Assembly (NCBI RefSeq): GCF_008831285.2
Contig: NC_045143.1
Span: 16,466,464 to 16,530,463, forward strand
Direction of reading: 5' to 3'
Length of the DNA stretch: 64,000 nucleotides
DNA from: Nymphaea colorata
Lineage: Eukaryota; Streptophyta; Magnoliopsida; Nymphaeales; Nymphaeaceae
Below, in pieces: positions 18,936 to 44,034 of this stretch (positions are counted from its first letter, which is position 1; each line of letters opens with the position of its first letter). The notes below the pieces were generated by a model that ran no database searches, was not told the origin of the DNA, and worked only from the letters and a program-made list of their open reading frames with translations. The translations under genes and the position numbers were made by a program.

Positions 18936-19357
18936 ACAGGGACTATCGCCATCGCTTCCAAAGCTGTGAAGGAGAAATAGGCGCAGTTCACCGTGACTCC
19001 AACTGAGAAGTTACAGACAAAGGAGGAAGGAATAGGCCCGATGAAGGCTGTCTGCCAGATTAAACAAAAAATCCGGTGAACAAGGGAGAAGCTCAGACTT
19101 CAAAATCCCCAATTTCTCAAAAACATTGGTACCAAATCTTTTGGCCGTATCCACCTAGATCTGCCTCCTTTCATCGGAACTCTGCCAGAAAAGCATAGGA
19201 GTGACGGGGAGAGAGCGTCTCCTCACCCTCTTCATCGACTTCGGGCTTCAACTTGTCTGATTCTTCCCTTCGTGATCATCGAAATCACCGGACTGCTGTT
19301 TCTTGTTGTACCTTGCCAAGCTGAGACAGAAATTCATCTCCAAGCAAGCAGCAACCC

Positions 19358-20629
19358 ATGGAGCAGGAAGGGGGAGCAAGACATGATAATGAACAACCGA
19401 CTATCTTACAAGGCAGTGATGGATCTTTGCATAGACTTATCGTGCAAGAGCAAGGTAATCCCAATCTCAAGATTACTAATACCTTGCTTGATGGTCTCAA
19501 TTTTTTACCTTGGTTTAAGGCTGTCACTCGATTTCTTAGTGGAAAATCTAAACTCGGATACATTGATGGTACTACAAAGAGACCACCACTCAATGATCCG
19601 AAATATAGTGAGTGGCGATCTATCAATGACACTGTTGCGTCTTGGCTCATCAATTCGATGGAGCCCAAGATAGCAGCATGTTTTAATTTTCTAGACACCG
19701 CAGAGGAGGTGTGGCAAGCCACCAAAGATCTTTATGGCGAGCAATATAATATTGCTCGCATGTACCAACTATGTCAAACAAAAGGAAGTCTAAAAAAGGG
19801 GACTGCCCCTATTAATGAATATATTGGCACCTTCAAAGGAATTTGGGATGAGATAGATGTCCATGCTCCTTTGACTACTGATCTCTCCATAGCCAAAAAG
19901 CAACGTGAACAAGAGCACATATTTGAAATTCTTGCTGGACTTCCAATTGACTACGAGAATCTTCGTAGTCAAATTCTCATGGCACATGAGCTACCTTCGC
20001 TAAGTTCAGTTTGTGCCCTTCTTATACGAGAAGAGTCAAGAAGAAAAGCTATGAGCACCTTGAACTGTAACGATCAAGAAGTGTCAAACGATGAAAAGGC
20101 GGCCTTCGCTGTGAACTCTTATAGCTCAGACAGTAGAAATTTCAGAGGAAAACGTGATGAAGGCAAAAAACTTAAATGCTCTCATTGTAAAAAGGTTGGC
20201 CATTCACGTGATACATGCTGGTTCATACATGGAAAACCTGACAGAGGTATAAATCATATTAAGTCCACGTCAAATGGGACATTTAAGGAGAACAATTTCA
20301 GTGGGAACATCAAGAAGGAGAACAATCAAACCAGTCTTATTACTTCCTCGTCAGACAACCCTATCACCTTGGAGACTCTTGCTGAAATGATAAAGGAACT
20401 TCAATTTGAAAAAACTCTGGTATCTCCATCAACAAATCGGATCACGCTAAAGGTATGGCCTACATCTCATGTCTTGATTCTAGCTCTCATTGGATTGTTG
20501 ACTCTGGCGCCACTAATCACATGGCTAAGCAGTTTACTCATCTTTATTCCCCTCACTCTATTGACGACATTGAACCAGTCGCTGCAGCCAATGGAGCACC
20601 CATTGCCGTCAAAGGAAAAGGAGGAATAG
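19358..20629 (+). CDS. Copia gag
   Basis: Structural protein of the retroelement particle. Residues about 40-80 hold the N-terminal gag signature (LLDGLNFLPWFKAVTRFLSG), residues about 95-225 the UBN2-type capsid region (AEEVWQATKDLYGEQYN), and residues about 274-288 a CCHC zinc knuckle (CSHCKKVGHSRDTCWFIHG). The last 60 or so codons run in the wrong frame: genuine pol sequence (DHAKGMAYISC) resumes two bases out of phase near 20440. Gag and pol are therefore split by a frameshift that is probably a small indel in this copy, since most plant Copia elements have one continuous frame. Confidence 0.88.
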   Translation: MEQEGGARHDNEQPTILQGSDGSLHRLIVQEQGNPNLKITNTLLDGLNFLPWFKAVTRFLSGKSKLGYIDGTTKRPPLNDPKYSEWRSINDTVASWLINSMEPKIAACFNFLDTAEEVWQATKDLYGEQYNIARMYQLCQTKGSLKKGTAPINEYIGTFKGIWDEIDVHAPLTTDLSIAKKQREQEHIFEILAGLPIDYENLRSQILMAHELPSLSSVCALLIREESRRKAMSTLNCNDQEVSNDEKAAFAVNSYSSDSRNFRGKRDEGKKLKCSHCKKVGHSRDTCWFIHGKPDRGINHIKSTSNGTFKENNFSGNIKKENNQTSLITSSSDNPITLETLAEMIKELQFEKTLVSPSTNRITLKVWPTSHVLILALIGLLTLAPLITWLSSLLIFIPLTLLTTLNQSLQPMEHPLPSKEKEE

Positions 20630-23076
20630 ATTTTTTTAACAAAAATTATACTAGTGAGATTCTTGTTATGCCGGAGCTTAAGTTTAATCTATTGTCTGTA
20701 GCAAAAATTACCAAAGAATTAGATTGCAATGTAGTTTTTTCTGCTACTAATGTTGTATTTCAGGATCGAAAGACTCCGACGATGATTGGTGAGGGGCACA
20801 TGGTGAACGGACTCTACCACATTAAAGCTCCTAATCAAGCTTTGAATATGACTTCTATGAATGAGGGAGAAATCTGGCATCAACGAATGGGTCATCCATC
20901 TGCTCAGACATTAAATTATCTTTTTCCCAAGCATTATTTTGATAATCATACATGTGATATTTGCAAGTTTGCTAAAATGACCAGACCAAAGTTCTCTTTA
21001 TCAGATTCTATTAGTGAACAACCGTTTGATCTTATATACTCTGATGTTTGGGGCCCTGCGCCTGTAGATTCTTTGGATGGATTTAGATATTATGTTACGT
21101 TTATTGATGATTTTTCCAGATCTACTTGGGTTTATTTCATGAAAAACAAATCTGAAGCTCTCTCTCATTTCCAAATTTTCTATAAGATGATTGAAGTTCA
21201 ATACAATTATAAAATAAAATGCTTCAGGTCTGACAATGGTACTGAGTTCAAAAATTCTGGTTTGAAAACCTTCTTAGATGAGCATGGCATACAACATCAA
21301 ACATCTTGTGTTGACACACCTCAACAAAATGGTGTGTCTGAAAGAAAAAATAGACATCTCTTAGAAGTTGCTAGAAGCATGTTATTCCAAATGAATGTGC
21401 CTAAAAATTATTGGAAATATGCTATTTCCACTGCTTGCTACGTGATCAATAGAACTCCTAGCAAACATCTCAATTACGTTAGTCCTATTGGTAAACTTAT
21501 GGGACATGTACCAAAACTTGATCATTTGCGTGTGTTTGGTTGTGTGGTTCATGTGTGGCTGCATTATGCAAAAAGAGACAAACTTAGTCATCGCTCAACC
21601 AAATGCATTTTTATTGGATACAACTCACAAAGCAAGGAGTATGTTTGTTTAGATCCTATTTCTAAAAAAACTTATATATCTCGTGATGTTCATTTCAATG
21701 AGAAACAACCCTACTTTGAAGTTAATAATCGTGATATAGGACAGGGGGAGTCTAAATCTCCTAACTTGCATGACTTTGATGATTTATTTTTTACCATAAG
21801 TGATGAGGAGGTCACTAGAGAAACTCCTCTAGAAGCTGGAAGTTGCATAGAAACTCAAGAACCAATTATTACTTCCAATGGTGATGAACTCTTCAATCAG
21901 GAGCTCAGAAGATCTGAGAGAACTCGAAGAATGCCCTCTCATCTAGCCGATTATGAGACATATTCTTGTTGCCATTATCCCATCAGCAATTTTGTTTCTT
22001 ATGATAAGGTTTCAGCTCAACACATCAATTTCATTAAGAGTCTTGACAAAATTGGTGAACCTCAAACTTTTCAAGAAGCTGAGAAGGACTCAAACTGGAG
22101 AAAGGCACTGGTGGAAGAATTAGAGGCTCTGAAACGCAAAAAGACTTGGGAGATTATGAAAAAACCAAAGCACGCAAGTGTTGTTGGCTGCAAATGGCAC
22201 TATAGAGTCAAATACAAGAGTGATGGCTCACTAGAAAGATACAAAGCTCGTCTAGTAGCCAAGGGATTCACTCAAACAAAGGGACTTGACTATGACGAAA
22301 CCTTTGCTCCTGTGGCAAAAATGAACACCTTGAGAATTATATTATCTTTGGCTTGTAACCTGAATTGGGGACTTCATCAACTAGACGTGAAGAATGCCTT
22401 CTTGCAAGGAGAAATCAATGAAGAAATTTACATGGCACTTCCTCTAGGACATCCAGATGAAGGAAAAAATTATGTATGCAAACTCAACAAAGCCATTTAT
22501 GGCCTGAAACAATCTCCTAGAGCATGGTACTTGAAGTTGAGCATGGCTATGAAAAACTTCGGATTTCGCAGATGTCACTCTGACAACACGCTCTTCATAA
22601 AGAAACACAAAAAACTCACCACAGTCGTGTTAATTTACGTGGATGATATAATAATGACAGGTGATGATGTTGAAGGCATATACAATCTCAAACATTACTT
22701 GAGAACCACATTCGATATAAAAGATCTGGGAAAACTCAAGTACTTTCTCGGAATTGAGATTGCCCAATCTCACAAAGGCATCTTTCTCTGTCAAAGGAAA
22801 TATGCACTTGACTTATTAAAGGAGACTGGAAAGATAGACGCGCGTCCTACCGACACTCCGATTGAAACAAATATCAAATTGGGGCCTTGTGAGGATGAGC
22901 CAGAGGTCAACAAGGAAGTATTTCAACGTCTAGTTGGTAAGCTTATTTACTTATCTGTTACTAGACCTGACATTTCATTCGCTGTGAATGTGATTAGCAG
23001 GTACATGCAAAGCCCAAGAGAGTCGCACATGAGGGCTGTAGATCGCGTTCTTCGATACATCAAAGGATCCTCATGA
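20455..23076 (+). CDS. Copia pol (protease, integrase, reverse transcriptase), truncated in RNase H
   Basis: In order: aspartic protease (WIVDSGATNHMA, D-S-G near residues 16-18); gag-pre-integrase zinc motif (WHQRMGHP...CDICKFAKM, about 142-180); DDE integrase core (SDVWGP, SDNGTEF, PQQNGVSERKN, about 195-300); reverse transcriptase (about 540-790) with the YVDDIIMTGDD catalytic motif near 730; then the RNase H connection (GKLIYLSVTRPDISFAVNVI). The frame ends RVLRYIKGSS followed by TGA. The T of that stop is Copia sequence and the GA belongs to the adjoining duplicated segment, so the stop was created by the junction. An intact element would continue with the RNase H acidic residues. The first Met is only the first in frame; in an intact copy pol would be fused to gag. 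Confidence 0.93.
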   Translation: MAYISCLDSSSHWIVDSGATNHMAKQFTHLYSPHSIDDIEPVAAANGAPIAVKGKGGIDFFNKNYTSEILVMPELKFNLLSVAKITKELDCNVVFSATNVVFQDRKTPTMIGEGHMVNGLYHIKAPNQALNMTSMNEGEIWHQRMGHPSAQTLNYLFPKHYFDNHTCDICKFAKMTRPKFSLSDSISEQPFDLIYSDVWGPAPVDSLDGFRYYVTFIDDFSRSTWVYFMKNKSEALSHFQIFYKMIEVQYNYKIKCFRSDNGTEFKNSGLKTFLDEHGIQHQTSCVDTPQQNGVSERKNRHLLEVARSMLFQMNVPKNYWKYAISTACYVINRTPSKHLNYVSPIGKLMGHVPKLDHLRVFGCVVHVWLHYAKRDKLSHRSTKCIFIGYNSQSKEYVCLDPISKKTYISRDVHFNEKQPYFEVNNRDIGQGESKSPNLHDFDDLFFTISDEEVTRETPLEAGSCIETQEPIITSNGDELFNQELRRSERTRRMPSHLADYETYSCCHYPISNFVSYDKVSAQHINFIKSLDKIGEPQTFQEAEKDSNWRKALVEELEALKRKKTWEIMKKPKHASVVGCKWHYRVKYKSDGSLERYKARLVAKGFTQTKGLDYDETFAPVAKMNTLRIILSLACNLNWGLHQLDVKNAFLQGEINEEIYMALPLGHPDEGKNYVCKLNKAIYGLKQSPRAWYLKLSMAMKNFGFRRCHSDNTLFIKKHKKLTTVVLIYVDDIIMTGDDVEGIYNLKHYLRTTFDIKDLGKLKYFLGIEIAQSHKGIFLCQRKYALDLLKETGKIDARPTDTPIETNIKLGPCEDEPEVNKEVFQRLVGKLIYLSVTRPDISFAVNVISRYMQSPRESHMRAVDRVLRYIKGSS

Positions 23077-24501
23077 GGGGCACAGCTCAAACAGGTAAGG
23101 TTGGGAAGTGTTAAGTAGGGTGTCTTCAAATTGACTCAAAGGGTTATTCTCATGCATCGAAATGAATCTTATGTGCAAAGTAAAGCATGGGGAGATGTCA
23201 TTGCTTGGTACCAATGCAATTCTGGACTCTAATAACAAAAAGAAAAAAGAAAGAAAGGAGAAGAGAACGAAGAATTGCTCGAGTGGTAAAATTAGTCATC
23301 CTGCTCAACAGGGGCGGAGGGTAACTTTCATTTCGTAAGCATGTCTTTTTTCCCGTTAATTTTGGCCAAGGCAAGAAAAAGTTGCCGTGGCCCGTGACAT
23401 CATGAAAAATTGCCACTTCACCTCCCATCGGCAACTCCGCTGGTCATTAGCATCAAACCTCCGAAGGCTAACAAAGGGGTATTGTACCGGAAGAGGGGCA
23501 ACTCGAAAGTTCTTTTGCAATATGGTTCCTCACAAGATGGTCTCTGTTTCTAAACGCCCCCCCGTATTTCACATACATCACTATTTTTTCACATTTCAAT
23601 ATAACTTAAAAACAATGTAAGGTTATTTGTTGTTTGCTATAGATTCAATTGTCCATATTTTTTTATAAATTTTACTGGAAAATTTGAACAAACCGCTACA
23701 TTTAGCTTAAGGTTTTTGCTTTCCTAACTCAAAGAAATAACATATAAAATAAATACGAGTTTTTAGGTTAACAACAATGTTATGCTCCTGGAAAGGTGAA
23801 AAAATTAATAGCATAAAGAAATCCTTTTCGTGTGCCTATTTGCACGAACCAGTTTCCGGAAAACATTAAAAAAAAAAAAAAGGTAGACCATGAAACAAAA
23901 GTTAGTCTTACATTAAAATAAATTTTTGTGATGGACATGTAGTGCAGCTTTCAAGCTGCATAACGCACACACACACACACTCTCTCTCTTTCATTGTTGA
24001 AAACACAATGTATTATATATACACACTAAGACCAGAAGACATGAAAAAAGAAAAAAGAAAAGCAACGGAAAAGGAAAAGGAAAAAAGGGTTAGGTTTAGA
24101 ATTTCACAGGTTGCGGGTTTAAAATTCAGGTTGTGCGTCTTCCCCAACAGGCAAAGAGAGGAAGAGAGAGATTTATGGGGCTGAAGGATCTACAGGATTT
24201 TCTTCTCTCAGCCCGTCACATTGCGACCTCCTTAAAATCCCTCTCCCTTAATTGAGTAAATCAAATGGAAGGTACTAGTATTTTAGTTCTGATCTGATGT
24301 AATAATAAAAAGCCAATGCTTCAAGCAAACTAAGCCCCATATATAATTAAGTACCACAAACCAATTGTATTCATATATATATCAAGACATAATTGCACAC
24401 ATAAAAGCGTGCAGAACAGAGAAAGAAGAATGAATTGAACATAAGAAATTGATACGTGTGTGTATATATACCTGCGAAGTCTTCTGCAAGGCCGTGACTG
24501 C

Positions 24502-24939
24502 TCAGCAGCACTGCCCACCATCCTTCAGGGTCGGTTCAACGGATTTCTTCTTGAAGGCCTGGGTTCCAAAGAGCCAGTAGCCCACTCCATGGCCAACGAC
24601 GGCCACGATCACCACCCCCAAATTGAACGACATGACCGCAAGCATCACGCAGTATGCAAAGAACACACGGAACCCGTAGACGACGGCTTGGAAGAAGCCA
24701 GTGGGGATGGGGTTGAGGCCAGGCTTCTGGTTGGTCTTCAGAAAGGCCAGCCACTCGACGATGACTGCCCCCAAGAAGACAATGATCAGGGAGAGTATGT
24801 ACTGGCCGAGGCTGGTGCCCGGCCAGTCAGCGAACAGAATCCACACGTCCTTCCCCCAGTACAAACTCATGTGCATGATCACCTTCTTGCTCGCCGCTGC
24901 CGGTGGTGCACCGCCGTGATCCATTCCTCCCATGTCCAT
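24502..24939 (-). CDS. COPT: Copper transporter, Ctr/COPT family (duplicate A)
   Basis: 145 residues, no intron. The N-terminus is Met/His-rich (MDMGGMDHGG, then IMHMSLYWGKDVWILF), giving copper-binding ligands outside the membrane. Three spans: about 44-67, 88-107 and 108-126. The M-x3-M motif is MLAVM (99-103) and the G-x3-G motif GHGVG (116-120). The C-terminus ends GGQCC, a Cys pair like those thought to hand copper to chaperones inside the cell. The protein is identical to that encoded at 39912-40349. A TATA-like TTATAA lies about 95 bases upstream of the ATG, and the leader contains a CT/GA-rich stretch (24975-24990). Confidence 0.96.
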   Translation of the reverse strand: MDMGGMDHGGAPPAAASKKVIMHMSLYWGKDVWILFADWPGTSLGQYILSLIIVFLGAVIVEWLAFLKTNQKPGLNPIPTGFFQAVVYGFRVFFAYCVMLAVMSFNLGVVIVAVVGHGVGYWLFGTQAFKKKSVEPTLKDGGQCC

Positions 24940-25030
24940 CTCCGAGGGTTTCCGATCTCCTCACCACCAACCCTCTCTCCCTCTCTCTCTGGCTGAGAAT
25001 GCAAGGCATTTGGAACGCTCAATGGCCTCC

Positions 25031-25036
25031 TTATAA
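25031..25036 (-). promoter_or_regulatory. TATA-like box of COPT duplicate A
   Basis: TTATAA (context ATTATAAGG on the minus strand), about 92 bases before the ATG, on a leader rich in GA. The same element is conserved in the other copy. Confidence 0.45.
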
Positions 25037-27324
25037 TTTGTCGAATTCGATGGAGAGTCAATCGCAGGACAAGTTGAAATAAAAATATTAGAGAGAGCGA
25101 AAGTACAAGGCTCGATCACAGGGGACCCAAATCCAAGCACCGCTTCATGTTTAAGTTAAACTTCGACGCAACGACCTGTAGTTACGTTTATATGATTCAA
25201 AATCCTCTTCAAATATAGATTAGTAGGAAATGCCCAGACAATTGGACGCCAAAAAAGCAGCTCATGCGTCGAGCACCAACAATAGTCACACAATGTTTAA
25301 AATAATATTTTGGGCAATATAGTTTGTCAACTTTTAGAATTCCGAAAGACATTTTTCATGTGGGATTAATTGGTTTATAATCTTCGTCACAATGGGAGGC
25401 CAGCAAGCAATTTGAATCATATGCAGTTTGACAACGTCCCTTCTTACGTTTTTTTTTATTACGCAGACATAGGAGGGTGGACGGCGGAGATAGTGTCGTA
25501 TCGTTGTACTACACTAATGAAGTACATTACATATAAAATTGTCCACCGCCACAAGGCAAATGGTACGAGCAAGTAATGGGCCTTCACTTATATATTCAGA
25601 AAGGTGAGCTTTGACTTTCAATGTGAAATATGCCTAACTTGACACGCATATTACGCACACACACTCTCTCGATCGATCTCTCTCCTGGATGTAAAGGATA
25701 GTGCGTTGAAAAGGATGATTACGAGCAGATGCTCTGCAATCAAATCTCTTATCAGTGGCAGTGTTCGTGACTTTGAATTATCTACCCATCATTGTACTTT
25801 CTTTCAAGAGAAACCGTTTTCCGAAACCTTCCGGTGAACTGTCATCAACGTTGGCCCTCCGAATTCCACATACTATTCGACAATTAGTAATCCCCAAAGA
25901 GGTTGGCTGAAGATCAGTGTTGAGCCCAAGGTTTTGAAATTCAAATCTCTCCATGAAAAGTAGACTTTCACCGTCAAAATCAGAGGACTGAGAAGGCCAA
26001 CGACAAACTCAACTTCCTTATAATGGTTTGATGGTGTTCACTATGTAAAAACTCCCAGCGCTGTTTATTTCATTATTTTTTTAGGGGAGTTCATATTCTC
26101 GTTTCCTGAATTTCGTGAGAAAAGGTGGCGATCAATGCCATCTATCATTTGAGGTCATGGTATGCAGATTGGTATAATTAGGGAAATTGAAATCCCCATG
26201 TTCTTCTTTCAGGTACTGCATGGTAGTTGCTTTCATTTTATACTCTTGGTGTGCCCTCAGCTTACTCTGGCTCCGGCCGTCGTCTCTGTAAAGCGCCATC
26301 CTTTTTCGGTTAATGCCGTTTTGTCCTTGCCTTGGGTTTGACTGCAGCATAGCTGGTTAGGACGGCCTTGTGTGGCTGTCATATAAGGCTATCCAGTTGA
26401 CTCCAACTATATAGTTTCTTTCTTGAAATTAAGGGTAGTTTCTGCTGGACTTTAGGTCCGATATTTAACTCAAACAAGGCTTTTCCATGGTTTCACTTGA
26501 TTAATTAATGGCATAGACAGATTCAAGGCTTCGTTCGATACCCAACAGTGTTAGTAAAACCTCAGTAGTATGATATTGCATTTCATATTCTTGATCAGTG
26601 TTATTCATGTGCAGATGATTGTTATGAGATGTTTCATGATCAACTGACCAGGATTAAATCTTGTTATGTTCGGAGAGTAGTGCTTCACGTACGTGAATAA
26701 GAAAAATTTATACTGGGCCAAAACAACGTGCGTTACAAAAGACAGTTCAGTTCCACAGGAACAACAAGGTTAGGCCTCCAATCAGATTTTTCAAAAAGAA
26801 CTAAGCGCTAGAATAATAGCTATATTATTGAGGAAAGAACTAAGAAGCCGAAGTAAGATGTCAGTGTCACGATGGGTCTCTTCTCCCATTAAACAAACAA
26901 TCTGAATGAAGATCCAGTGCTGAAAATACACATATGGCTCCCTCTCTCAGAACGTGGACGATGACCACCTGAACTCACCAAGAAATGGTCAAACCAGGAG
27001 CTCTTCTGCAGCTTCCCTTCTGAGAAAATCACAATTAGTCGTCGTGATCATAAAGAAACCATTTGCAAGTTGCACGGAAAGAGACTCCAACTAAATTTAT
27101 GTTAATGAAAAGTAAACATTTGCTAAGAAGGACATCTGTAACATTAGAAAGAGAATTTGATTGACTTCCATGAAGAATCAAAATTCCAGAATCACACGTT
27201 GAAGCAGATGCACATTCTGTATGTACCATCTAATGCAGAGACTAGAAAAAACAAAAGCGACAGACTCCGATAGTCGTACGTATAGAGCAGGAGTTGAAAC
27301 AGTTAACCATAATGATCTTACCTC

Positions 27325-28225
27325 TCACCACGCGGCCGTTGGCTCGACGGCTGTGGTAGCCGTGGAGGAGGCGGGAGCTTTTTCTGGGATGTAGTAGGCA
27401 GGGACCCAGTTGATGTCGACGATGTGGGACCCAGCTGCAGTCTGCTGGATTGCTTGTTCTGAGAGGGAGTAGGCAGGGACGAGAACGGCCCGGTTACTCA
27501 AAGGTTCCTCAAGAGTCAAGCCTTGGTTCAACACGGCACGCTCTGCACACACTCGCCCACTGCCCAAGAGTAGAGAGCAAGTCAATTAGAAAGTGAACAA
27601 CAAAAGAGATAGCTTAGATATAGAGAAAGAGTAGTACCAATCTTCTCGTGTGTAAAATAATATCACGGCTATGCTTCTTGACAAGATTTAGAATAATCTG
27701 TGACCGAGGCAACTCCCACCGAGGCATGTACAATATACTCATGAAGCAAAAAATAAAAATTAGAGAGTTAACCATAAACATCTTTACCTCTCAACACGTT
27801 CGAGGATGTCCAAAAGGATGGCCCGAACCGTGTCGCTAATCTGTGACTGAGGCAACTCCCACCTGTGTACAATATACTCGTGTATACTCATGAAGAAAAA
27901 ATAAAAATTAGAGCCAGAGGTAACCATAATCGTATTTACCTCTCCACAAATTGTATACAACGTTCAAGGACGTCGTCAAGGGTGGCCGGAACTGTGTAGC
28001 TAATCTGTGACTGAGGCAACTCCCACCTGTGTGCAATATACTCATGTAAACCCATGAAGCAAAAATAAAAAATTGGAGAGAGAGTTAACCATAATGATCT
28101 TACCTCTCAACCACTTGGACACAACGTTCAAGGGTGGCCATTAAGCTTGATACCCTGGAAGGCCTCCTTGCTCTTCGAGCAGCAAAAACTGGAGTAGCAA
28201 AAAAAGAAGTGAGAAGGGCAGCCAT
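27325..28225 (-). CDS. Unrecognised small protein gene with tandemly duplicated symmetric exons
   Basis: My model has four exons: 28104-28225, 27940-28026, 27788-27862, 27325-27559. All introns are GT/AG and phases agree, giving 172 residues. The start MAALLTSFFATPVFAARRAR looks like an organelle-targeting peptide. Exons two (87 bases) and three (75 bases) are duplicates: both begin WELPQSQIS and end in LER...VE, and the 3' half of exon one has the same motif (MATLERCVQVVER). Their introns are duplicates too, the first two both 77 bases. A fourth exon copy near 27717 has lost its acceptor AG. The last exon ends in a TGA next to another repeat-type donor (GAGAG then GTAAG at about 27320), so the stop may be a secondary one-base change and the gene once longer. 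I recognise no family. It could be a young or decaying gene, or a non-coding transcript; evidence for coding is the preserved phase. Confidence 0.5.
27692..28110 (-). repeat. Tandem array of exon-plus-intron units (about 150-165 bp)
   Basis: Units share GTGGGAGTTGCCTC at the exon start, GAGAGGTAA at the donor, and an intron with GTTAACCATAA, AAAAATAAAAATT and CATGAGTATATTG in minus-strand sense. Clear units lie at about 27940-28103, 27788-27939 and 27692-27787. The intron end and donor occur once more at 27300-27325 without a following exon. This is the array that generates the duplicated exons of the minus-strand gene. Confidence 0.8.
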
Positions 28226-28381
28226 CAATGCGAAGCGAAGGAAGAATTTCAATAATATTGGATGAAAACTAATACAACGTTTGTGCTAGTTATATAGCGC
28301 AGGGTCTTGATCAAAAAGATAACTTGCCGTTTCAACGATATTTGAAACTGATGCCACTAGGAAGTTGGAAAGCAGAACTAT
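28184..28381. repeat. Left arm of a perfect 198-bp inverted repeat
   Basis: Reverse complement of 28595-28792 with no mismatch by eye over 198 bases. It contains the TATA box, leader, ATG and first 14 codons of the minus-strand gene. The spacer (28382-28594) is 213 bases. Confidence 0.95.
28290..28296 (-). promoter_or_regulatory. TATA box, leftward promoter in the inverted repeat
   Basis: TATATAA on the minus strand, 65 bases before the ATG at 28225. Mirror image of the box at 28680-28686. Confidence 0.55.
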
Positions 28382-28430
28382 GCCACTAGGAAGTTGGACA
28401 GCAGAAGCCAGAAACTATGCCACTAAAACA
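28349..28430. repeat. Short direct repeats at the inner edge of the inverted repeat
   Basis: ATGCCACTAGGAAGTTGGA occurs at about 28350 and 28380, and CTATGCCACTA again at about 28415. Two lie at or beyond the left arm's inner end, marking local slippage or repair near the hairpin centre. Confidence 0.6.
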
Positions 28431-28594
28431 AAAATAGAAAAGCGAAAACCAACGCCACTCAGAAGAAAAAGTTGAACCGGATCCGATTTTGCGAAGACGT
28501 CAAACCAGAAACACGGTTCCAAAAAAAGCCGATAACTTCCGCCCAATATCCAGCCGCATCATATGAGATGAAAATATGAGGTCACCGTAGTTAT

Positions 28595-28792
28595 ATAGTT
28601 CTGCTTTCCAACTTCCTAGTGGCATCAGTTTCAAATATCGTTGAAACGGCAAGTTATCTTTTTGATCAAGACCCTGCGCTATATAACTAGCACAAACGTT
28701 GTATTAGTTTTCATCCAATATTATTGAAATTCTTCCTTCGCTTCGCATTGATGGCTGCCCTTCTCACTTCTTTTTTTGCTACTCCAGTTTTT
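28595..28792. repeat. Right arm of the perfect 198-bp inverted repeat
   Basis: Mirror of 28184-28381. Its outer end (28792) is exactly the point where UGT homology begins, so the arm supplies promoter, leader, ATG and 14 codons to the UGT pseudogene. Confidence 0.95.
28680..28686 (+). promoter_or_regulatory. TATA box, rightward promoter in the inverted repeat
   Basis: TATATAA, 65 bases before the ATG at 28751. Mirror of 28290-28296. It would drive the chimeric UGT pseudogene. Confidence 0.55.
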
Positions 28793-30383
28793 CCTCAGGG
28801 CCACATAAACTGCATGCTCAATCTCGCCGAGCTACTCTCCCTCGACGGCGACCTCTGCCTGACCTTCCTCAACTCTGAGCAGAACGACCTACGTCTCCGT
28901 CGGTGCACCGACCTCCACACCCGCCATAGTTCCCGTAAGAACTTACAATTCCGTGTGCAATCACCGACTGGCTGTCGGATGATCACCCCAGGTTGGCGGA
29001 CGATATCCTGGAGATACATGCTTCGCTGAGGACGACGACCAAGAACGTCTTCAGGCAGATGTTAATGGCAGCCCAGGAGGAGGGGGGGATAATATCGGGG
29101 AGAGGTGGCCACCTGTTCATGTCTGATTGTTGATGGGATCATGTCCTTTGCTGCGGATGTCGCTGAGGAACTTGGAATTCCATGCATCTCCTTCAGAACG
29201 ATTAGTGCAGCGAGTTTCTTGGCCTACTTCTGTATACCTTGGCTTGCGGAAGGTGGAGAGATTCCCTTCGGAGGTACCGCAATTTCAGATTGCATTCCCT
29301 CCGACCGTAGGAACTCCGGTTCTATCATTCTTTATTACTCTTTTTGTTTTTTTATTGAGAGTAACAAAGTGCCAAGTTGAGAGGGATTCGCATGATGATG
29401 TATTGGTTAGCAGCTGGTTTTTACGATTTGAAAGATCAAGTTCTTGTTTGGCTTGCAGAAACAACAGACATGGCCCGCATCACGAGATGCATTCTAGGAA
29501 TGGTGGGGGTGGTTCGTCTAAGAGATCTACCCAGCTTCTGCCGGATAAATGACCTGAACGACGACTTGCTTCGCCTCGTCCTGACCGAAACCCACCAGTC
29601 GATGAAGGCAACAGGAATCATCCTCAACACGTTCTACGATCTTGAGGCAGCTGTGCTCGATCGGATGTCCGCTCGTTTCCCCAAAATCTACACCATCGGC
29701 CGGCTCAACGCATTCTTGAAGTGGCGGAACCGGGACCGCCCGGCGACCTTGGGCTCGGCTAGCCTGTGGAAGGAAGACAAAGAGTGGATGGAGTGGCTGG
29801 GGAAGAGGGAAAAGAGGTCGGTGGTGTACATCAACTTTGGCAGCTTCACTCGGATCACTGCGGAGGACATGGTGGAGTTCCTCCATGGCCTGGTTGGTGC
29901 TGGGTTCCCTTTTCTATGGGCGATAAAGCCTGACCTTGTGAAGGGCGAAGTAGGTTCGGTTCCAGCCGTGCTCTTGGAGGCAGCTCAAGAGAAGGGGTGC
30001 CTGGTTGAGTGGGTTCCGCAGGAGGAGGTGCTGTGGGAGGCTTCTTGACGCACAGCAGGTGGAATTCAACCCTTGAGAGCATCCTCTACGGGGTGCCGAT
30101 GCTCTGCTGGCCCTTCTTTGCAGACCAGCAGATCAACAGTAAGTTCGCGAGCCATGTTTGGAGGGTGGGGCTGGACATGAAGGACACCTGCTCAAGGGTG
30201 GTCATTGATAGGTTGGTGAAAGAGTTGATGGGTGAGCAATTGAGGAGGAACGCGATGCGGATGAAGGAGTGTGCATGGAGAAGCATTGAAGAAGGGGGAT
30301 CCTCTAACACCAACTTTCAAAAATTAGTGCAGGATATCAAGATACAGAATCTCAAAGGCTGTATCGACAAAATGCTGAATTGA
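28751..30383 (+). pseudogene. UDP-glycosyltransferase pseudogene (UGT85/UGT709-like) with a foreign 5' end
   Basis: The first 14 codons (MAALLTSFFATPVF) come from the inverted repeat and join in frame to UGT sequence at PQGHINCMLNLAELLSL, where a normal UGT has its own N-terminus ending in FPxxQGHIN. Exon one runs to 29273. An intron (29274-29458, GT/AG) splits it from exon two, which starts TTDMARITRCILGMVG and contains RLRDLPSFCR, a UGT85/UGT709 feature. Breaks: a small indel near 28965, another near 29095-29125, and a 13-base loss at about 30032 inside the PSPG box that removes AHPS and shifts frame. In addition HSGWN has become HSRWN. After the last break the frame continues to a TGA at 30383, parallel to the UGT at the left edge. 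It cannot make a working enzyme. The unusual 5' fusion may be older or younger than the breaks. Confidence 0.9.
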
Positions 30384-37922: not shown

Positions 37923-39849
37923 TTTCAGCTAGTCAGATTGATTCAGACCTTTAGTGATACTTAACTTCATCTTGACAAAAAAAATTGCATCGATTCTTAT
38001 GAACTAGTAGCCAGAAATATAGTAAAAAAACCTGCCCATTACAGACTGTAGCGTTGTAAAAGAAGTTTCTGAATCAAATCGGCAGGCCAATTCATTGAAT
38101 CGGCTCAAAAAAATAAATAAATAATAAAAAGTTTTTAAAATATTTAAAAAATTAAAAACTGAACAAGTTCCACACTTGAATCGGCCACCAGGCTGGAATT
38201 TGTTTGCCATTCTAACAACACTGTGACGCGCGACTGTGTTGTGATGGACTCTCGATTAGTAGAAAGCACACTCAGTTTTGACCCTTCAGGAGGAACTGCT
38301 GCCACTTATTTGCTTTCAAAGTAGTGATGTTTAATCAACATATGAACATAAAAAAAAAAATTAATTCAATCAATGCAACATATGAACATAAAAAAAAAAT
38401 TAATTCAATCAATGCTCATGAGTCATGACAGATATTCTTTTAGAACAAGAGATTTTGTATTGTAAAAAAGCTGCAATTAAGTTTAGGATTATGAGTTTGG
38501 AGGGGCACAGCTCAAACAGGTAAGGTTGGGAAGTGTTAAGTAGGGTGTCTTCAAATTGACTCAAAGGGTTATTCTCATGCATCGAAATGAATCTTATGTG
38601 CAAAGTAAAGCATGGGGAGATGTCATTGCTTGGTACCAATGCAATTCTGGACTCTAATAACAAAAAGAAAAAAGAAAGAAAGGAGAAGAGAACGAAGAAT
38701 TGCTCGAGTGGTAAAATTAGTCATCCTGCTCAACAGGGGCGGAGGGTAACTTTCATTTCGTAAGCATGTCTTTTTTCCCGTTAATTTTGGCCAAGGCAAG
38801 AAAAAGTTGCCGTGGCCCGTGACATCATGAAAAATTGCCACTTCACCTCCCATCGGCAACTCCGCTGGTCATTAGCATCAAACCTCCGAAGGCTAACAAA
38901 GGGGTATTGTACCGGAAGAGGGGCAACTCGAAAGTTCTTTTGCAATATGGTTCCTCACAAGATGGTCTCTGTTTCTAAACGCCCCCCCGTATTTCACATA
39001 CATCACTATTTTTTCACATTTCAATATAACTTAAAAACAATGTAAGGTTATTTGTTGTTTGCTATAGATTCAATTGTCCATATTTTTTTATAAATTTTAC
39101 TGGAGAATTTGAACAAACCGCTACATTTAGCTTAAGGTTTTTGCTTTCCAAACTCAAAGAAATAACATATAAAATAAATACGAGTTTTTAGGTTAACAAC
39201 AATGTTATGCTCCTGGAAAGGTGAAAATTTGCACGAACCAGTTTCCGGAAAACATTAAAAAAAAAAAAAAAGGTAGACCATGAAACAAAAGTTAGTCTTA
39301 CATTAAAATAAATTTTTGTGATGGACATGTAGTGCAGCTTTCAAGCTGCATAACGCACACACACACACACACACACTCTCTCTTTCATTGTTGAAAACAC
39401 AATGTATTATATATACACACTAAGACCAGAAGACATGAAAAAAGAAAAAAGAAAAGCAACGGAAAAGGAAAAGGAAAAAAGGGTTAGGTTTAGAATTTCA
39501 CAGGTTGCGGGTTTAAAATTCAGGTTGTGCGTCTTCCCCAACAGGCAAAGAGAGGAAGAGAGAGATTTATGGGGCTGAAGGATCTACAGGATTTTCTTCT
39601 CTCAGCCCGTCACATTGCGACCTCCTTAAAATCCCTCTCCCTTAATTGAGTAAATCAAATGGAAGGTACTAGTATTTTAGTTCTGATCTGATGTAATAAT
39701 AAAAAGCCAATGCTTCAAGCAAACTAAGCCCCATATATAATTAAGTACCACAAACCAATTGTATTCATATATATATCAAGACATAATTGCACACATAAAA
39801 GCGTGCAGAACAGAGAAAGAAGAATGAATTGAACATAAGAAATTGATAC

Positions 39850-39880
<31 letters not shown>

Positions 39881-39911
39881 CCTGCGAAGTCTTCTGCAAG
39901 GCCGTGACTGC

Positions 39912-40349
39912 TCAGCAGCACTGCCCACCATCCTTCAGGGTCGGTTCAACGGATTTCTTCTTGAAGGCCTGGGTTCCAAAGAGCCAGTAGCCCACTCCAT
40001 GGCCAACGACGGCCACGATCACCACCCCCAAATTGAACGACATGACCGCAAGCATCACGCAGTATGCAAAGAACACACGGAACCCGTAGACGACGGCTTG
40101 GAAGAAGCCAGTGGGGATGGGGTTGAGGCCAGGCTTCTGGTTGGTCTTCAGAAAGGCCAGCCACTCGACGATGACTGCCCCCAAGAAGACAATGATCAGG
40201 GAGAGTATGTACTGGCCGAGGCTGGTGCCCGGCCAGTCAGCGAACAGAATCCACACGTCCTTCCCCCAGTACAAACTCATGTGCATGATCACCTTCTTGC
40301 TCGCCGCTGCCGGTGGTGCACCGCCGTGATCCATTCCTCCCATGTCCAT
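39912..40349 (-). CDS. COPT: Copper transporter, Ctr/COPT family (duplicate B)
   Basis: Encodes exactly the same 145 residues as 24502-24939, with MDMGGMDHGG at the start, MLAVM in span two, GHGVG in span three and a GGQCC end. Leader and immediate promoter are also the same. The two loci therefore double the dosage of one product unless their outer flanks regulate them differently. Complete coding identity with a diverged outer part suggests recent duplication or gene conversion over the gene. Confidence 0.96.
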   Translation of the reverse strand: MDMGGMDHGGAPPAAASKKVIMHMSLYWGKDVWILFADWPGTSLGQYILSLIIVFLGAVIVEWLAFLKTNQKPGLNPIPTGFFQAVVYGFRVFFAYCVMLAVMSFNLGVVIVAVVGHGVGYWLFGTQAFKKKSVEPTLKDGGQCC

Positions 40350-40440
40350 CTCCGAGGGTTTCCGATCTCCTCACCACCAACCCTCTCTCCCTCTCTCTCT
40401 GGCTGAGAATGCAAGGCATTTGGAACGCTCAATGGCCTCC

Positions 40441-40446
40441 TTATAA
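40441..40446 (-). promoter_or_regulatory. TATA-like box of COPT duplicate B
   Basis: TTATAA in the same context and at the same distance (about 92 bases) from the ATG as in duplicate A. Confidence 0.45.
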
Positions 40447-42892
40447 TTTGTCGAATTCGATGGAGAGTCAATCGCAGGACAAGTTGAAATAAAAATATTA
40501 GAGAGAGCGAAAGTACAAGGCTCGATCACAGGGGACCCAAATCCAAGCACCGCTTCATGTTTAAGTTAAACTTCGACGCAACGACCTGTAGTTACGTTTA
40601 TATGATTCAAAATCCTCTTCAAATATAGATTAGTAGGAAATGCCCAGACAATTGGACGCCAAAAAAGCAGCTCATGCGTCGAGCACCAACAATAGTCACA
40701 CAATGTTTAAAATAATATTTTGGGCAATATAGTTTGTCAACTTTTAGAATTCCGAAAGACATTTTTCATGTGGGATTAATTGGTTTATAATCTTCGTCAC
40801 AATGGGAGGCCAGCAAGCAATTTGAATCATATGCAGTTTGACAACGTCCCTTCTTACGTTTTTTTTTATTACGCAGACATAGGAGGGTGGACGGCGGAGA
40901 TAGTGTCGTATCGTTGTACTACACTAATGAAGTACATTACATATAAAATTGTCCACCGCCACAAGGCAAATGGTACGAGCAAGTTGTGGGCCTTCACTTA
41001 TATATTCAGAAAGGTGAGCTTTGACTTTCAATGTGAAATATGCCTAACTTGACACGCATATTGCGCACACACACTCTCTCGATCGATCTCTCTCCTGGAT
41101 GTAAAGGATAGTGCGTTGAAAAGGATGATTACGAGCAGATGCTCTGCAATCAAATCTCTTATCAGTGGCAGTGTTCGTGACTTTGAATTATCTATCCATC
41201 ATTGTACTTTCTTTCACTAAAGAGAAACCGTTTTCCGAAACCTTCCGCTTCCGGTGAACTGTCATCAACGTTGGCCCTCCGAGTTCCACATACTATTCGA
41301 CAATTAGTAATCTCCAATGAGGTTAGCTGAAGATCAGTGTTCAGCCTAAGGTTTTGAAATTCAAATCTCTCCATGAAAAGAAGACTTTCACCGTCAAAAT
41401 CAGAGAATTGAGAAGGCCAACGATAAACTCAGCTTCCTTATAATGGTTTGATGGTGTTCACTATGTAAAAACTCCCAGCACTGTTTATTTCATTGTCTTT
41501 TAGGGGAGTTCATATTCTCGTTTCCTAAATTTCGTGAGAAAAAGTGGCGATCAATGCCATCTATCATTTGAGGCCATGGTATGCAGATTGGCATAATTAG
41601 GGAAAATTGAAATCCCCATGTTGTTCTTTCAGGTACTGCATGGTAGTTGCTTTCATTTTAGACTTTTTGTGTGGCCTCAGCTTACTCTGGCTCCGGCCGT
41701 CGTCTCTGCAAAACGCTATCTTTTTTCGGTTAATGCCGTTTTGTCCTTGCCTTTGGTTTGACTGCAGCATAGCTGGTTAGGACGGCCTTCTGTGGCTGTC
41801 ATATAAGGCTATCCAGTTGACTCCAACTATATAGTTTCTTTCTTGAAATTAAGGGTAGTTTCAGCTGGACTTTAGGTCCGATATTTAACTCAAACAAGGC
41901 TTTTCCATGGTTTCACTTGATTAATTAATGGCTTAGATAGATTCAAGGCTTCGTTCGATACTCAACAGTGCTAGTAAAACCTCAGTAGTATGATATTGCA
42001 TTTCATATTGTTTATCCGTGTTATTCATGTGCAGATGATTGTTATGACATGTTTCATGATCAACTGGCCAGGATTTAATCTTGTTATGCTCGGAGAATAG
42101 TGCTTCACGTATGTGAATAAGAAAAATTTATGCTGGGCCAAAACAACGTGCGTTACAAAAGACAGTTCAGTTCCACAGGAACAACAGGGTTAGGCCTCCA
42201 CATCTCGATACTGTAAACATTGTCGCCTAGCCATGACCTCACCTGCAAGGAATGCGTTGGTGGTCTCATCTGTTAGCTGGGCTCATTTTTCCAGTCTCAA
42301 ACTGACAGAGATTGCACTGAGTAATCAGATTTTGCAAAAAAGAACTAAGCACTAGAATAATAGTTATATTATTGAGGAAAGAACTAAGAAGCCGAAGTAA
42401 TATTTCAGTGTCACCAGAGACGGCATAAGAAGATGGGTCTGTTCTCTCATTAAACAACCTGAATAAAGATCCAGTGCTGAAAATACACATAAGCCTCCCT
42501 CTCCCAGAACGTGGACGATGACCACCTGAACTCACCAAGAAATGGTCAAACCAGGAGATCTTATCCTTCTGAAGCTGGTCTCTTTTTGAGAAAATCACAA
42601 TTAGTCGTCGTGATCATAAAGAAACCATTTGCAAGTTGCAAGGAGACAGATTCCAACTAAATTTATGTTATCGAAAAGTAAACATTTGCTATGAAGGGCA
42701 TCTGTAACATTAGAAATAAAATTTGATTGACTTCCATGAAGAAACAAAATTCCAGAATCACAGCCTAACAGTGTGAGTCCCTAACTGTCACGTTGAAGCA
42801 GATGCGCATTCTGTATGTGCCATCTAATGCGGAGACCAGAAAAAACAAGAGCGACATAATTCTGTCCTAGGATAGTCACACGTAGAGAGCAG

Positions 42893-44034
42893 GTGGTGAG
42901 CCAGTAGCCAAGAAAGACACTGAGATTAAGAGTCCTAAACTTACCACTTTAGTTCCCAAGTTCCCGTTTGGTGTTGCCCTTAAGGTATTTGTGGTCAAGG
43001 TTCAATCAGGTTTGTCAAATATTGAATAATGGTCTGCTCCTTCCTCATCAGAAGTAGAAAGAGATGGCTCGGGCTTCTCAAAGATGAGTTCACTTTGTCT
43101 CCAATAAATGCATGCAGCACCTCGACCAGAATAAATTGATGAAAGAGACCCCACTAATATTTGTGTGTTGCCTTTGAGAAGATCGAACCATGTAACTCGC
43201 TTTGCGTTGCCTTTGTGTGTGTTGGTCTCTCTCTCTTTTGAAATCTCTTACAGATGACAACAGAAAGAACTTAGCCTGACACTTTTAAGTCACCTCTCTT
43301 CTTGAGAGACGAAAAGGAACATCTGTGGAAGTTTCGCAATCAAATTCATTATCTCTTCAAACATATAATCAACATTTTTGTGGTCAACATTTCAATCAAT
43401 TGGATTTTCCCTAGTTATCTATAAATTATTGGGTTTTCCGAACAACATCAGTAACATGAAGAATTTTACGAACAATAACTCCTGAAGGAAGCCCAGCAGA
43501 AAAATTGATTCCACTGAATCAGATTGCACTCGCTGTTCTACTTTTGCTTGATAATACCAATATTACTGAAAAACTGGGAAAAGGAAACGATTATCGTTGT
43601 TTAGCACCTGTCCAATTTTCTTCCAGCCATGGGAAAGCAGAGAGACACAGTTACTCAACATTGCTAAGGCCACCAACAAGTCGTTGGGGGCAACAAAAAA
43701 AACAAGCGGCACAAACCCGCAGTAAGCAGCAAACCAAACAGAAAACGAAATTAAGAAGAAACCCTACTCTCCCTGCGGAGGAGTACCGCAACATCAAAAA
43801 GAATGAATGGGGGAGAGAGGGAGAGGGAGAAACGTTATGACACCAAATGGGATCTTTGATTTCAGTAAACTATGCGACATCAATTAGTAACTAATAACAG
43901 AGGAAGAAGAAATGTCTGGTTTTCTCCTCCCATTCTCGACTGCAGAACCCTGAGCCACATCCTTGAACTTTAGAAGGAAAAGGAAACGCGATAATGCTGT
44001 GGAAGGAGGAGGAAGAATGGGAATCGGAAAGGGG
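42893..44034. other. Spacer right of duplicated copy 2
   Basis: Includes the 3' UTR side of the minus-strand membrane-protein gene. A 111-codon frame at 43505-43840 is Lys/Gln/Arg-rich with no domain, and I do not accept it. Confidence 0.5.

Follow-up and report, generated by a model that had tools for sequence, protein, structure and literature searches.

The question raised by this locus is how two gene starts that are exact mirror images of each other came to point away from one another across a short spacer, and whether either of them serves a working gene. The window, that is, the whole stretch of DNA that was analysed, comprises 64 kb of the forward strand of Nymphaea colorata (C6:16466464-16530463). 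Genome-wide searches were made in the same plant genome (407.8 Mb, 783 contigs); the published genome is described as having 409 Mb and 14 pseudo-chromosomes (PMC7015852).

The perfect 198-bp inverted repeat claimed in the original prediction is real. The segment 28184-28381 is the reverse complement of 28595-28792 at 198/198 positions, and the ends are abrupt, with only background identity beyond them. Self-alignment recovers the inverted arms as 208 nt at 98% identity when mismatches are allowed (28181-28388 vs 28588-28795), or as 201 bp with one mismatch in a second self-comparison, and the chance expectation of the repeat is ca 1e-110 per 64 kb. A minus-strand self-BLAST of 244 kb (window plus flanks; E<=1e-3, with low-complexity filtering, a minimum alignment of 40 and spacers of at most 5 kb) lists six pairs, among which this repeat is the sole separated close pair. 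The remaining five are self-overlapping palindromes with identities of 69–90%.

The content claimed for the arms is also borne out by the sequence. In each of them TATATAA is followed by 64 bases, an ATG and 14 codons that translate to MAALLTSFFATPVF, and the two identical sets point outward over a spacer of 213 bp. The features of the arms are the following.

28184..28381, minus strand: left arm, read as the donor, with the upstream sequence, TATA box, leader, ATG and 14 codons of a terpene-synthase (TPS) relic (from arm identity and homology to C5)
28296-28290, minus strand: TATATAA of the left arm (sequence inspection)
28225-28223, minus strand: ATG of the left arm (sequence inspection)
28595..28792, plus strand: right arm, read as the inverted copy, with TATA box, ATG and 14 codons, then UGT sequence directly (from arm identity and flanks without TPS homology)
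28680-28686, plus strand: TATATAA of the right arm (sequence inspection)
28751-28753, plus strand: ATG of the right arm (sequence inspection)

Elsewhere in the window, the segment 52456-52806 is self-palindromic over ca 350 bp at 69% identity and resembles an old hairpin or a MITE.

The identity of the gene that starts in the left arm can be judged from its relatives.

27340..28225, minus strand: TPS relic, the duplicated-exon gene of the original prediction, with exon 1 beginning in the left arm

The repeated exon units of this gene lie inside 27694-28133. A genome search with 27290-28183 gave at least 49 matches, the query included and some genes several times, and 40 of the 49 matches listed, counted by row, span a core near 27540-27596. 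One relative, on C15, has the Pfam domain Terpene_synth_C (E=9.8e-45) and isoprene synthase as its best PDB match (E=3.7e-34), and the window gene matches it with 28/74 identical positions (BLASTP E=5e-14, a single comparison). Since this relative carries the terpene-synthase domain and the window gene matches the relative, the left gene is, judged by homology, probably a truncated terpene-synthase relic. Its own conceptual protein, searched with the last exon in another frame than in the BLASTP comparison with the C15 relative, gave no terpene-synthase match in Pfam (best E 0.16, to unrelated families), and the best E of the conceptual protein against the PDB is 0.51. For the C5 version of the relic, no Pfam family was found at E<=5. 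When the last exon is read in the TPS frame, a stop is encountered shortly past the conserved core. Terpene synthases carry a substrate-binding aspartate motif; by inspection this stretch is missing from the relic, at a place where the C15 relative has EDIFG, and activity is therefore not expected. More than 80 TPS-b genes are described for Nymphaea colorata, the majority of them without the two typical catalytic motifs (PMC7015852).

The C5 relatives make it possible to tell the two arms apart. The arm search of the whole genome finds four places, namely the two window arms and two promoters on C5 with 73% identity. These promoters belong to relatives of the TPS relic, one of which has the same order of TATA box, leader and ATG as the arms, and a local BLAST on the C5 region gives one further partial arm match, of 62 bp at 79%. 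The C5 relative is itself doubled, with copies at C5:17580179-17583368 and 17511461-17514650 that lie ca 69 kb apart in opposite orientation and are 96.5% identical over 2.6 kb.

For the outer flank of the left arm, 0/300 shuffles reach the score of the homology to the C5 relative, at two flank lengths, these tests being narrow in that the best shuffle comes within 0.5–2 points of the real score. For its inner flank, 28382-28465, compared to the C5 upstream region, the count is again 0/300, and for a longer inner flank, 28382-28480, it is 1/300. The flanks of the right arm have no significant homology to the C5 TPS relative (126/300 and 22/300 shuffles reach the score), and its outer flank is UGT sequence. 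In addition, a 29-bp tandem repeat (28346-28417) spans the boundary of the left arm only. Since the C5 homology continues beyond both ends of the left arm and beyond neither end of the right one, the left arm is, on the evidence of the flanks, the original start of the TPS relic and the right arm is the inverted copy. The reverse assignment, with the right arm as the original, was considered and rejected, because its flanks lack significant homology to the C5 TPS relative. The mirror image proposed for the arms thus holds as far as the two outward gene starts are concerned, but the arms are not equals, one being donor and the other copy.

The same results bear on the possibility that a DNA transposon (a MITE, a foldback element or a MULE) with 198-bp terminal inverted repeats has inserted here. 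Perfect terminal inverted repeats flanking a short spacer are typical of such elements, and this is the shape of the present repeat. However, there is no target-site duplication, as no direct repeat of 2–11 bp abuts the ends, and apart from the two arms themselves the search for arm sequences yields only the two 73% promoters on C5 and the 62-bp partial match. Furthermore, the homology of the left arm to the C5 relative runs past both of its ends, and part of a host exon is found in the spacer, as described below. The transposon was thus rejected on the flanks, the copy number and the filler, and we consider it highly improbable.

The right arm leads into a different gene.

28793..30383, plus strand: UGT pseudogene, made up of exon 1, intron and exon 2, that lacks its native promoter and the first 16-17 codons

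An intact neighbouring UGT begins ca 1.2 kb before the window and has 1476 coding bases with no internal stop. Its 3' flank is tandemly duplicated (553-920 and 915-1293, 89% identity). The homology of the window copy to this neighbour begins at 28795, immediately past the right arm, and the match of a third copy, at C6:17082520, to the window copy begins at 28794. Both the intact and the third copy, which are the closest relatives of the window copy in the genome, retain the native start MADRGSVSHVLIFPFP plus one residue before QGHIN, while in the window copy it is MAALLTSFFATPVFP that precedes QGHIN instead. The right-arm copy is fused at codons 17/18 of the UGT pseudogene, whose promoter and start it has replaced. 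The fusion is in frame, and the reading frame is open for 92 codons before it meets a stop.

Compared to the intact copy, the window UGT has frame-shifting indels near 28953 (+2), 29085 (−1), 29116 (−1) and 30033 (−13), as well as a coding indel of −9 and a 31-base loss across the stop. The two copies differ by a dN of 0.045 and a dS of 0.084, and at 20/174 intron sites. Of the frame-shifting indels, three lie in the region that the window, intact and third copies have in common, and they occur in the window copy alone; in the third copy, two other losses shift the frame. A complete UGT frame with the native N-terminus is not present in the window copy, as the start is lost, four indels shift the frame and the stop region is lost. 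The C-terminal piece matches the Pfam family UDPGT (PF00201, E=1.5e-12, 47.6 bits vs a cut-off of 19.5). The middle piece reaches 12.8 bits for the same family, which is under the cut-off, and matches cyanohydrin beta-glucosyltransferase in the PDB (E=9.1e-37), while no UDPGT match was found in Pfam for the N-terminal fusion piece. We take the gene to be of the UGT85-like subfamily.

Between the arms, the spacer can be divided into parts of different origin.

28382..28465, minus strand: original upstream sequence of the TPS relic, with an approximate right end (from C5 homology)
28466..28557, no strand assigned: part with no source found (whole-genome search)
28558..28587, plus strand: 30-bp filler, copy of a PAP2_C exon (30/30 identity to C6:16448274-16448303)
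28588..28598, plus strand: 11-mer TAGTTATATAG, identical to 28287-28297 in the left arm

The first part includes the second unit of the 29-bp tandem repeat. For 28463-28557, a whole-genome search with 28463-28600 gave no match except the segment itself, and in the comparison with the C5 upstream region 109/300 and 207/300 shuffles reach its score. That the spacer is the UGT's own upstream region was also considered. This was rejected, because a BLAST against the 10 kb that hold the upstream region of the intact UGT gave no match to the spacer, and because for the whole spacer 248/300 shuffles reach the score on the plus strand. On the reverse strand the count is 8/300, which we read as a consequence of A/T-richness, since there is no BLAST match and 28466-28594 alone is unremarkable (189/300).

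The donor of the filler is a coding exon (minus strand, GDLIFSSHMI) of a PAP2_C gene 46.7 kb away. Three joined exon pieces of this gene match Pfam PAP2_C with E=1.5e-24, and the gene is presumably of the inositolphosphoceramide-synthase type. With up to three mismatches allowed, the 28-base core of the filler occurs at three places in 407.8 Mb (0 for the reversed control). Two of these, the filler itself and its donor, are the only exact ones found in the genome, and the third is a similar exon on C13 that differs by 1 mismatch. For comparison, when 40 Markov-shuffled spacers were matched to the same 244 kb, the longest exact matches had 11–16 bases.

The filler lies 7 bases from the inner junction of the right arm. 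The 11-mer follows it directly, and its ATAG is shared with the beginning of the inverted copy. In the 3.2 kb that were compared, shuffled spacers have on average 0.21 matches of at least 11 bp. Local matches of at least 9 bp are not in excess over the entire spacer (4 vs a shuffled mean of 2.9). It is possible that the 11-mer represents a second short template or a priming microhomology, and it may also be due to chance.

Template-switching repair leaves a signature in which sequence copied in inverted orientation from nearby is combined with an exact filler from a distant locus and joined abruptly to a third sequence. In our view it is very probable that the inverted repeat arose as the scar of such a repair, which is error-prone. 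In such a scenario, a break would have occurred upstream of the TPS relic, and the broken end would have been extended first on the PAP2_C exon and then perhaps, briefly, on the local TATA region. A fold-back at ATAG, an overlap of 4 bp, would then have allowed 198 bases to be copied from the start of the relic, and the end of the inverted copy would finally have been attached to the broken UGT with hardly any microhomology, if any. By inspection, the microhomology is 4 bp (ATAG) at the fold-back and 0–1 bp at the other junctions. There may have been one repair event or several, their number and the enzyme being a matter of inference, and the repair chain is incomplete, since the ca 92 bp at 28466-28557 have no found source. 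The event is mostly reconstructable because the arms have a polarity, two UGT relatives have kept their native starts and the 30-bp filler is nearly unique. Its product would be a pair of outward core promoters together with a 92-codon in-frame fusion peptide, most likely functionless.

Another option is that the mirror is an assembly artefact, caused by a long read that was chimeric or folded back on itself. With a missed adapter, the entire read would be mirrored. Here, however, the mirror is limited to 198 bp and is followed by a 213-bp spacer with the 30-bp exon fragment and then by a different gene, and there is no N in the 244 kb. An artefact is thus very unlikely.

Template-switch repair as the origin finds parallels in several known systems. 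The templated inverted insertions described in yeast (PMC11724301) have in common with this locus the inverted copies, the fragments from distant loci, the fold-back microhomology and the NHEJ-like capture of ends. The median lengths reported there are 50 bp in a rad27 mutant and 150 bp in an rtt105 mutant, with microhomologies of 2–11 bp between inverted pieces and 0–4 bp at captured ends. The present case differs from these in that it concerns a natural plant genome, with a 198-bp copy and a 213-bp spacer, and in that a core promoter with its ATG has been fused to another gene. In Arabidopsis, short fillers at break repairs are described as derived from the flanks or, in polymerase-theta end joining, from other donor molecules (PMC10923293). 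The breaks in that work are induced ones with T-DNA, whereas here a long inverted copy is combined with a filler whose source lies on the same contig at a distance of 46.7 kb. For template-switch perfect hairpins, a single event is described as yielding a perfect reverse-complement copy beside its source (PMC8794818); those are stems of RNA genes, whereas the arms here are promoters and a foreign filler is present. The large inverted duplications described in human (PMC3907307) have the fold-back origin in common with this repeat, but at a far larger scale. Among the paper titles listed by searches of the literature, none describes this locus, from which absence is not proven.

The locus does not show a new biological system. 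It would rather be an unusually readable natural example of template-switch repair by which a second gene acquires an entire promoter and an in-frame gene start. An event of this type is a raw step toward chimeric genes and inverted duplications, and possibly toward later small-RNA loci.

The age of the repeat can be estimated from the three UGT copies. Over 844 ungapped columns, there are 20 private substitutions in the window copy, 34 in the intact copy and 24 in the third copy. For a repeat of the same age as the private branch of the window UGT, 9.4 differences between the arms would be expected, and the probability of finding none would be 8e-5 (Poisson, equal rates assumed). At half that age the probability is ca 0.01, and at a quarter 0.10. 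Since the arms have no differences despite the private divergence of the UGT, the repeat is, by this estimate, much younger than that branch, or else the arms have been converted. The original prediction of a very recent event or continued gene conversion is thus supported. If the repeat is the younger of the two, the UGT was probably already decaying when it gained its new start.

The second of these options would imply an older inverted duplication, with arms kept identical by gene conversion and forming a twin promoter that is still live. It would account for the zero differences between arms that lie next to a UGT copy with 20 private substitutions in 844 columns, and template switching between the arms of inverted repeats is reported to homogenise them (PMC8604942). 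However, identity breaks off abruptly at the ends of the repeat instead of decaying toward them, and a recent origin accounts for the same facts in fewer steps. We therefore consider this scenario unlikely, and favour a recent repair event.

It had been proposed that one arm drives the repeated-exon gene to the left and the other the UGT remnant to the right, and that the two loci may be co-regulated. The position of the two genes stands, but driving and co-regulation presuppose working genes, and against this speak the four frame-shifting indels of the UGT and the truncation of the TPS relic. With a fusion that ends after 92 codons on one side and a truncated relic on the other, neither gene looks functional, and the repeat is probably a repair scar between two relics.

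The original prediction also suggested that a read-through transcript of the region could feed siRNA production. The two promoters by themselves give no reason to expect this. The transcript starting at either of them would hold the leader of one arm only, and both leaders have the same sense, so that the transcripts could not base-pair with one another, nor could either fold back along the repeat. For a double-stranded RNA or a hairpin, a further start would be required from which the spacer is transcribed. If such transcription passed through both arms, the locus might be a functional source of a hairpin or of small RNAs, with double-stranded RNA that silences TPS relatives. In favour of this reading, inverted duplication is reported as the origin of most miRNA genes related to pseudogenes in rice and Arabidopsis (PMC3237417), and soybean CHS repeats are reported to spawn siRNAs (PMC6710647). 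The plant miRNA genes resemble this locus in combining an inverted duplication with pseudogene sequence. The promoters predicted here, however, point outward, so that their own transcripts contain one arm apiece, and there is no Rfam match at the gathering threshold in the 64-kb window. Moreover, the other homologues found for the arm are just 73–79% identical and hence poor targets. A functional locus of this type is accordingly a very doubtful proposition.

There is, finally, a slight chance of a wider significance, namely that a single repair event can transplant a core promoter, leader, ATG and N-terminal codons in frame and thereby make both twin promoters and a hairpin-capable locus. The pair present here could in that case be active, co-expressing two specialised-metabolism relics, or could seed small RNAs against many TPS relatives.

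The neighbourhood of the repeat contains further duplicated sequence. A direct duplication of ca 4.2 kb (23075-27303 and 38500-42905), with 96.7% identity over 3.7 kb and then ca 81% with gaps, stops just short of the TPS relic. It holds two identical ORFs, 24502-24960 and 39912-40370, which we take to be copper-transporter-like. It begins where the retrotransposon ORFs at 19325-23076, presumably of the Copia type, end. At the far end of the TPS relic, about where the duplication stops, the segment 27301-27331 is a near-copy of 28083-28114 (97% over 32 positions), an intron-donor segment of the relic, and is possibly another short templated copy or a residual repeat unit.
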